A stretch of DNA of 24,333 nt from a virus, in IMG/VR virus record IMGVR_UViG_3300035188_000145, positions 1 through 24,333 of that record; one strand, 5' to 3'. Below the pieces are notes generated by a model that was given only the letters and a program-made list of their open reading frames with translations, did no database searches and was not told the DNA's origin. The number at the start of each line of letters is the position of its first letter. The stretch's first letter is position 1. This document shows, piece by piece, positions 8,866 to 13,118 of the stretch. The position numbers were made by a program, and so were the translations under genes.

Positions 8866-9071
8866 TACCTCTGCCCCTTTTTGAAACGAGGGGGCTGAGC
8901 CGTACCCATCTCAACATCATATTCCATAATAGCTTTCTCACAGGCACGTTTAATGGATTCTAGTCGCATACGATAGTTACCACGAACATGCACCCGCTCT
9001 TTCTTATCATTCAGATTCGTTATCAAAGTCTGTACCTGAAACGGCACTTCGAACTGAGTTTCTTCCTTCAT
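8865..9071 (-). CDS. Small basic hypothetical protein overlapping the end of gene 55
   Basis: A 68-aa reading from ATG 9071, chosen because GGGAG lies 6 nt upstream; the frame is also open to a TTG at 9095 with a poorer ribosome site. The first 20 or so codons overlap the end of gene 55 in another frame, so a shorter product from an internal start near 9010 is possible. The non-overlapping part (KKERVHVRGNYRMRLESIKRACEKAIMEY) is strongly helical and basic, ending PPRFKKGQR, which fits nucleic-acid or polymerase binding. A gene of this type sits between 55 and 47 in marine T4-like phages. Function unknown. Confidence 0.62.
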   Translation of the reverse strand: MKEETQFEVPFQVQTLITNLNDKKERVHVRGNYRMRLESIKRACEKAIMEYDVEMGTAQPPRFKKGQR

Positions 9072-9651
9072 CTTCATCTCCCACAAACTTTTCAAGACCT
9101 TCTTTATCTACTTTTCTCTTTTCTTTTTTGGCTAGTTCCCTTGCCTCAAAGTTTTTGATGAACTCGTTTAGGTTATCATACATAGATGAGGAAATCAAGT
9201 GATTATCGTCCCCATCCACCATTAGAGAAGCATCAGCAGTATCCAATACGCTTTCCTGAAACTTCTTATACATTATATATCTATTCTTTTCCTCTTTAGA
9301 GATACGTCTATGGAAAGCATAGTAAATGATTTGCGTGAAGTATGCGAAAGGATTCTGACTGATATCAGGATTGAAATTGTCAAAGTAAAGAAAGCAATTC
9401 TCTAGTGCATCCGATTTCATTTCATCGATAAAAGAATAGTTCATAAAACGTGGCTTGCGAGCCAAGTTCTCGGTAATCAACCAGATACATTTGCCACAAT
9501 ACTCACTAACCCTAGGCTTCTCTTGCCCATTAGCTAATGCATCCTTACATCTTTTTTTATAATTTACAATATCTTCTAAAAATTTCTGGTTATCGACGTA
9601 GTGGTTAGTTTTCTTTTTCTTGGATATAAAGTTATTTTCCTTGTCAGACAT
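9007..9651 (-). CDS. gp55: gp55-type late-transcription sigma factor
   Basis: A 214-aa divergent sigma-family protein (T4 gp55 is 185 aa) that directs host RNA polymerase to TATAAATA-type late promoters. The diagnostic part is residues 45-115: SEYCGKCIWLITENLARKPRF, then a region-2-like core where DALENCFLYFDNFNP is followed by NPFAYFTQIIYYAFHRRISKEEK. This corresponds to the T4 segment ending [21 protein letters not shown]. In T4 the C-terminus carries a short hydrophobic motif that contacts the sliding clamp; here the tail is polar and acidic (GRNSVRSAVSGTDFDNESE) and no such motif is evident. It is the only gene of the block with its own perfect -35 promoter directly upstream (9679-9707). 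Confidence 0.92.
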   Translation of the reverse strand: MSDKENNFISKKKKTNHYVDNQKFLEDIVNYKKRCKDALANGQEKPRVSEYCGKCIWLITENLARKPRFMNYSFIDEMKSDALENCFLYFDNFNPDISQNPFAYFTQIIYYAFHRRISKEEKNRYIMYKKFQESVLDTADASLMVDGDDNHLISSSMYDNLNEFIKNFEARELAKKEKRKVDKEGLEKFVGDEDEGRNSVRSAVSGTDFDNESE

Positions 9652-9678
9652 AGTGACCCTTTCGTATGCTCAATAGAT

Positions 9679-9707
9679 ATCATATATCAAAAAAAATCAC
9701 TTGTCAA
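9679..9707 (-). promoter_or_regulatory. sigma70-type promoter for gene 55
   Basis: Minus strand TTGACA at 9707-9702, 17-nt spacer containing a run of eight T, TATGAT at 9684-9679. It lies 28 nt upstream of the gene 55 ATG, and 13 nt separate its -35 from the -35 of the opposite-facing promoter at 9721. Early host-polymerase expression of the late sigma is implied. Confidence 0.85.
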
Positions 9708-9720
9708 TGCATTTTTACCC

Positions 9721-9750
9721 TTGACAAGGTTTTAGAAACATGTGTATAAT
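9721..9750 (+). promoter_or_regulatory. Rightward sigma70-type promoter, opposite to all genes
   Basis: Plus strand TTGACA at 9721-9726, an 18-nt spacer, and a perfect TATAAT at 9745-9750. The predicted start is near 9757. No credible plus-strand gene follows: the only close ATG lies inside the hairpin and gives 19 codons. Transcription would run into the antisense of the 98-aa and 139-aa genes and uvsW. Both boxes are perfect; the only departure is one extra spacer base. Confidence 0.7.
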
Positions 9751-9756
9751 GGTTTT

Positions 9757-9850
9757 GTTCCACCAGCCTTACCATAACCAAATCTACCAATTGCTCCTAT
9801 CGAGCGAAGCGAGACCGATGCGAAGCATCGGCCAGAAGCTCCTAACCTAC
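9757..9850 (+). ncRNA. Possible structured small or antisense RNA in the gene 55 upstream region
   Basis: This gap between gene 55 and the 98-aa gene is non-coding as far as I can tell. It contains GCGAAGC at 9804-9810 and a perfect 7-bp stem with GAA loop, CCGATGC/GCATCGG at 9815-9831. The hairpins are flanked by imperfect 16-nt direct repeats (9778-9793 and 9841-9856, 13 of 16 identical), each next to a GCTCCTA (9793-9799, 9838-9844). GCTCCTA is complementary to ribosome sites of the TAGGAG type. The rightward promoter just upstream would place these in the 5' part of a transcript. No T-run follows the stem, so it does not look like an intrinsic terminator. The RNA call is inference. Confidence 0.4.
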
Positions 9851-10147
9851 CTATTGAACAAATCCTGGCTCAGTTAATAGTTTCATCTTTGCTATCTGCT
9901 TCTGAAGCAAAGGACCACGATTTGGCCACTTGATGATAGGCTGGTCGGAATTCTTTGCTAGGTTTTCCAATAGTGGTAGATAAATCTTCCTTACCGCTTC
10001 TAGTCTCTTTTTAAGATCGGTAATCTCGTCTGTCGCAGGAGCAATTGCGTTTGCTACAATCTCTTCCTCATCACCAAAGGTGAACCCGAAATCATCTACT
10101 AGATCAGCATCATCTAGAGTTAAATATTCGTTAGTATAAGTTGCCAT
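9851..10147 (-). CDS. Conserved hypothetical protein of T4-like phages, 98 aa
   Basis: A small acidic protein whose ATG overlaps the preceding stop as TAATG. The N-terminal half is acidic (LDDADLVDDFGFTFGDEEE); a helix (ITDLKKRLEAVRKIYLPLLENLA) leads to the motif IIKWPNRGPLLQKQIAKM. A protein with this helix plus IKWPNR ending occurs next to the Sm-like gene in marine T4-like phages, so it is part of the inherited core rather than an accessory gene. Function unknown to me; a small coiled-coil adaptor is possible. Confidence 0.75.
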   Translation of the reverse strand: MATYTNEYLTLDDADLVDDFGFTFGDEEEIVANAIAPATDEITDLKKRLEAVRKIYLPLLENLAKNSDQPIIKWPNRGPLLQKQIAKMKLLTEPGFVQ

Positions 10148-13076: not shown

Positions 13077-13084
13077 TTATTTAG
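13077..13084 (-). promoter_or_regulatory. Late-promoter-like box before the second tube-fold gene
   Basis: Minus strand CTAAATAA, a variant of T4 TATAAATA, between the gene 23 terminator and the start at 13061. It is close to the start codon (about 15 nt), and its site right after a terminator is what gives it weight. Confidence 0.45.
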
Positions 13085-13091
13085 CAGACAT

Positions 13092-13118
13092 AAAAAAAGG
13101 GGAGCCGAAGCTCCCCTT
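13092..13118 (-). terminator. Intrinsic terminator after gene 23
   Basis: Minus strand stem GGGGAGC, loop TTCG, stem GCTCCCC (13116-13099), followed by seven T (13098-13092). A textbook UUCG-loop terminator 23 nt beyond the capsid stop. It closes the capsid transcript and insulates the early uvsY block from late readthrough. Confidence 0.95.

Follow-up and report, generated by a model that had tools for sequence, protein, structure and literature searches.

In bacteriophage T4, gp55 takes over from sigma-70, and a review that found no small trans-acting regulatory RNA of this phage to have been functionally characterised hoped that the genomes of its relatives would suggest candidates (PMC3014915). 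RNAC and RNAD, small T4 RNAs without a known role, come from the tRNA region (PMC3014915). At the T4 origins oriF and oriG, near uvsY and uvsW, a MotA middle promoter is combined with an exposed non-template strand (PMC3016281). Among bacteria, antisense and small RNAs terminated by Rho have been described (PMC7815308), and very stable DNA mini-hairpins such as d(GCGAAGC) arise when G-C pairs carry a GNA or GNNA loop (PMC4686876).

Here we describe a site in a T4-like virus that appears to be a so far undescribed antisense noncoding unit, judged from its promoter, its leader and two hairpins, H1 and H2. The open literature, to which our search was confined (subscription papers lay outside it), does not describe the unit. 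As at oriF and oriG, its transcript may expose the non-template strand close to uvsY and uvsW, but its promoter has the sigma-70 consensus, it lacks an A+T-rich unwinding element and it carries structured hairpins. With the Rho-terminated bacterial RNAs it shares a promoter of its own, an untranslated C-rich leader and stem-loops at the presumed 3' end, whereas it is phage-borne, keeps a fixed place beside the late sigma factor gene g55 and has a putative dependence on Rho. Its loops, like those of the mini-hairpins, are closed by C and stand on G-C pairs, but they are tandem, genomic and next to a promoter, H1 adds a tandem G.A, and their folding as DNA is predicted. The putative RNA would resemble RNAC and RNAD as a small phage RNA without a known role, from a different locus.

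The window, meaning the whole stretch of DNA analysed, covers the full length of one virus record (24,333 bases). Its T4-like gene content, entirely on the minus strand, comprises g23, tail tube, uvsY, uvsW, a 139-aa gene, a 98-aa gene, g55 and a nuclease gene resembling gp47 (SbcD-like). Judged by g23, the named phages nearest to it reach 65% at most: Pelagibacter phage Mosig, DLP_6, Methylophilales phage Melnitz and S-WAM1. The late sigma factor gene g55 (9007–9651, minus strand, start at 9651) matched phrog_234 with an E value of 1.5e-51. The 98-aa gene (9851–10147, minus strand) had no PHROG match, and its stop codon at 9851–9853 forms the far border of the unit. CTAAATA, which we take to be a cyanophage late-promoter motif, occurs six times in the window, only on the minus strand (for example at 13078, 15957 and 19823); three copies lie just ahead of genes, which suggests late promoters, and the count is not above chance. 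A canonical intrinsic terminator with a UUCG loop, GGGGAGCTTCGGCTCCCC followed by a T-run, lies 3' of g23 (13093–13116, minus strand) and is the phage's own standard of termination.

Between the g55 start and the 98-aa stop, an earlier note on this DNA had described back-to-back promoters, and both were found. The plus-strand promoter, TTGACA-18-TATAAT at 9721–9750, matches the sigma-70 consensus at 12/12 positions, and its -35 element is 13 nt from that of the g55 promoter on the minus strand (TTGACA-17-TATGAT, 9679–9707, 11/12). It points against all genes of the window, and from the spacing its transcript would be expected to start at about 9757, some 7 nt after the -10 element. The further claim that no plus-strand gene follows also held: a plus-strand open reading frame of 45 aa (9740–9877) begins within the promoter, ahead of the expected transcript start, and a plus-strand coding sequence was rejected. 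No coding signal was found on the plus strand, a read-through translation yielded nothing, and the reading frame between H1 and H2 is not kept across elements.

A search with the g55 protein yielded 68 relatives, and conservation was assessed in the 44 loci with g55 identity of about 65% or more (L004–L047), together with the window. The plus-strand promoter scored 12/12 in all 45 loci and in 33 of 33 distinct elements; since the detection pattern demanded a near-consensus promoter, the result lies in success at every locus and not in the score alone. Loss of the promoter and stem in close relatives, which the earlier note had named as evidence against its proposal, was not seen. Among the 22 elements that adjoin g55, 17 have a g55 promoter of 11/12 or better and four have one of 9/12 or worse. 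A gap of about 750 nt lies between the unit and g55 in 11 elements, where the unit stays beside the 98-aa gene. The plus-strand promoter is kept at 12/12 even with a weak or lost g55 promoter or a displaced g55. The 750 nt include another reading frame (L004, L006, L012, L026, L030, L033, L034, L037, L041, L044 and L047). Four near-complete relatives of 165–174 kb have nearly all genes on one strand and carry just one to three anti-coding 12/12 promoters per genome (one each in G004, G005 and G007, three in G006), always including one at g55; this rarity, with the GCGAAGC copies and the conserved structure described below, places the site beyond chance.

In the window H1 (TCGAGCGAAGCGAGA, 9800–9814, plus strand) consists of two outer pairs, a tandem G.A/A.G, two inner pairs and a GAA loop, and H2 (CCGATGCGAAGCATCGG, 9815–9831, plus strand) of seven base pairs and a GAA loop. 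They adjoin each other ahead of the 98-aa stop codon, and H2 is the 7-bp GAA-loop stem pointed out earlier; two of the three GCGAAGC copies in the window are at this site. As many matches to the hairpin pattern were unrelated contigs, pairing was also counted in 25 distinct elements found through g55 and not through that pattern (hereafter unbiased), in a fixed register around the loops and without alignment. Three outer pairs of H1 co-vary, its core GAGCGAAGCGA is present in 24 of the 25, and pairs 3–6 of H2 co-vary. In nearly all 25, these H2 positions and the innermost two outer pairs of H1 show Watson-Crick pairing, each with two to four kinds of pair. None of 2000 shuffles reached the observed pairing. 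In an alignment of 20 sequences 97% of cells were paired, with a covariation of 0.581 versus 0.168 after shuffling, and slid controls gave 18–43%; shuffle tests are inflated by relatedness, which the slid controls preserve, and the structure itself was read from these sequences. Both hairpins co-vary strongly in relatives, where the earlier note had proposed a covariance search. Under standard energy tables the 94-nt plus strand has an alternative fold as well, with a TTGCTC/GAGCGA hairpin; those relatives whose leader contains TGCAAC are unable to form it. No Rfam family matched at its gathering score, the best match below threshold being RtT (22 bits vs 45).

The hairpin structure fits the plus strand, since the rules for sheared G.A (tandem G.A, GNA and GNNA loops) apply there only: inside H1 the mismatches are G.A/A.G on plus but U.C on minus, and across elements the loops are GAA, GTA, GTTA, GGTA and GCTA, with G first, A last and a closing C-G pair. 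Not every H1 obeys the rule: the G001 element at 61406 differs, with CTGCGCGAGCGCAG as its H1. The plus strand is the strand transcribed from the antisense promoter and also the non-template DNA strand. As DNA, the hairpins fall by sequence into the GNA/GNNA mini-hairpin class, each loop standing on at least two G-C pairs; the description "ultra-stable" in the earlier note is documented for GCGAAGC hairpins of DNA (PMC4686876) and would be putative for an RNA. Among 48 terminator-like stems from six relatives, the commonest loops were of the UUCG and GAAA types and 28 of 388 pairs were G-U, versus none of 125 at pairs 2–6 of H2 (counts that are not independent). The loop classes and the absence of G-U pairs point towards DNA hairpins, the C-rich, G-poor leader towards an RNA handled by Rho (PMC7815308). 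Genome-wide, GNA hairpins were too few for a test of strand bias.

The leader (9757–9799, plus strand) is 37% C and 7% G, about 56% A+T, and Rho-site-like; its C-rich, G-poor composition has a z of about 2.8 against the anti-coding background. C exceeds G in 25 of 25 leaders of the clade, and the leaders of the distant elements in G001–G003 are not C-rich. The two GCTCCTA copies reported earlier lie at 9793–9799 and 9838–9844, but the pairing with ribosome sites proposed for them did not survive comparison: only one of the 25 unbiased leaders has GCTCCTA and two have CTCCT, and the motif was rejected as an anti-ribosome-site seed. Recurrent leader words are exclusively A/C-rich, such as AACCA (23 of 25). 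In all its main parts the earlier description of the site proved right; the imperfect direct repeat measures 18 nt at 72% identity where 16 nt had been given. No U-tract follows H1 or H2 on either strand, and an intrinsic terminator at the hairpins was therefore rejected.

T4-like genomes more distant than these loci have one or two copies of the unit, all anti-coding. The distant G001 and G003 each carry two anti-coding 12/12 promoters, all followed by hairpin pairs. One of the two is at g55 and the other lies a gene away from what by eye resembles a phrog_407 gene; the second antisense units are at about 1406 of L295 and 16810 of L290. G004 likewise has a second unit, with an 11/12 promoter, beside a phrog_407 gene (L274, 13900–14110; about 14.0 kb in G004). 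H1/H2-like pairs for which a promoter was not detected occur on the anti-coding strand of G001 and G003 (L298, about 19690; L286, about 6149), after a large gene with baseplate-like repeats. An antisense promoter of 10–12/12 also lies directly upstream of g55 in P-RSM4, P-SSM4, S-SSM7, S-RSM4, ACG-2014b, DLP_6 and Mosig, without H1/H2, a state seen in several Kyanoviridae; S-B68 and Melnitz score 9. Its presence outside the clade, where H1/H2 are lacking, suggests that the antisense promoter predates the hairpins, although a repeated origin of matches this short would also be conceivable. At the DNA level the region had no match in named phages, and among 30 pattern matches in genome contigs, sought as bacterial homologues, none had the H1+H2 arrangement in its printed sequence.

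We consider it very probable that a conserved antisense noncoding unit exists at this site. It combines what a small noncoding RNA gene has, namely its own promoter, no coding sequence and a covarying structure, and in the window's clade, though not in G001–G003, it has the untranslated, C-rich, G-poor leader of a Rho-dependent unit. The regulatory RNA or antisense transcript suggested in the earlier note is backed by comparison, in that 33 of 33 elements have the perfect promoter, the hairpins co-vary and the noncanonical positions fit the plus strand only. The unit probably has a role in the early-to-late switch. Our preferred explanation, held tentatively and, taken as a whole, at somewhat less than even confidence, is that it is an early, sigma-70-driven antisense noncoding unit restraining the uvsY-uvsW-139-98 operon until late transcription, with the hairpins marking a stable RNA end. 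Host sigma-70 polymerase would fire the antisense promoter early; the untranslated leader would let Rho load, so that transcription ends beyond H2, and exonucleases would trim the product to H1/H2, leaving an RNA of about 75–100 nt. Early antisense transcription, through polymerase collision and the RNA, would repress the operon and insulate g55. Once gp55 replaced sigma-70, the antisense promoter would fall silent and late sense transcription run through, the late timing of the sense operon being inferred by analogy with T4. We favour this explanation because of the promoter's presence in 45 of 45 loci, the rarity of anti-coding promoters, the covariation, the same-site promoter in named phages and the excess of C over G in clade leaders; the restriction of CTAAATA to the minus strand and the takeover by gp55 in T4 (PMC3014915) also speak for it. 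Against it stand the G001–G003 leaders and also the loops and the missing G-U pairs, which suit DNA hairpins no less well. The conserved unit lies beside the late sigma gene, and sequenced, named phages of Prochlorococcus, Synechococcus, Pelagibacter and Stenotrophomonas have an antisense promoter in the same place, so a single small site could give access to the family's replication origins and to its early-to-late switch.

If the RNA instead acted in trans, its unstructured leader pairing with phage or host mRNAs or H1/H2 binding and titrating a protein, the strong promoter, conserved structure, noncoding character and additional copies elsewhere in G001, G003 and G004 would all be in keeping; we nevertheless think this unlikely, given the missing conserved seed, the divergence of distant leaders where promoter and hairpins stay, and an orientation always antisense to neighbouring genes. 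Promoter competition alone, in which the plus-strand promoter limits g55 by keeping polymerase away and makes an RNA without function, is a very improbable account: two polymerases could hardly both bind with -35 elements so close, and cyanophages too have back-to-back promoters at g55, but the perfect promoter persists where its partner is lost or g55 displaced, and the hairpins co-vary. Nor does it seem at all likely that H1/H2 serve the 98-aa operon on the sense strand, as its terminator or as a structure at its 3' end, beside an incidental antisense promoter. Their place directly past the sense stop codon and the pairs with no detected promoter after the baseplate-type-looking gene agree with that idea, yet on the minus strand H1 has U.C mismatches and the loops start with U, the UUCG loop and U-run of the g23 terminator are both lacking, and conservation of the antisense promoter is perfect.

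T4 origins are themselves promoters with an exposed non-template strand (PMC3016281), which makes the most interesting rival a transcription-dependent origin like oriF, at which the antisense RNA would form an R-loop and GNA mini-hairpins on the displaced plus strand would keep it open or recruit replication proteins. Its position beside uvsW and uvsY, the documented hyperstability of its loop classes in DNA (PMC4686876), the contrast in G-U pairs with the relatives' RNA terminators and the one to two units per genome speak for such an origin. Composition and skew give it no support: GC skew does not change at the unit, although it follows the coding strand, no A+T-rich unwinding element lies downstream of the promoter, and a C-rich RNA would be expected to disfavour R-loops; T4 itself, moreover, has a different arrangement at this location. 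We rate this origin as rather unlikely, and give the same doubtful standing to the broader proposal of a single-stranded DNA element, opened by transcription, whose paired mini-hairpins start or control replication or recombination next to uvsW/uvsY. If true, T4-like phages would be making natural and conserved use of hyperstable DNA mini-hairpins.

A short palindrome is also centred on the predicted transcript start, within the first 16 nt past the -10 element, in relatives such as L021, L032, L044, L163 and L199 (for example ATGCTTTGCAT, ATACTCCGTAT and AGGCTATGCCT). Its mean stem is 2.9 in relatives versus 1.8 in shuffles, it is weak in the window, and a similar palindrome lies 3' of the -10 element in DLP_6, Mosig and S-SSM7.
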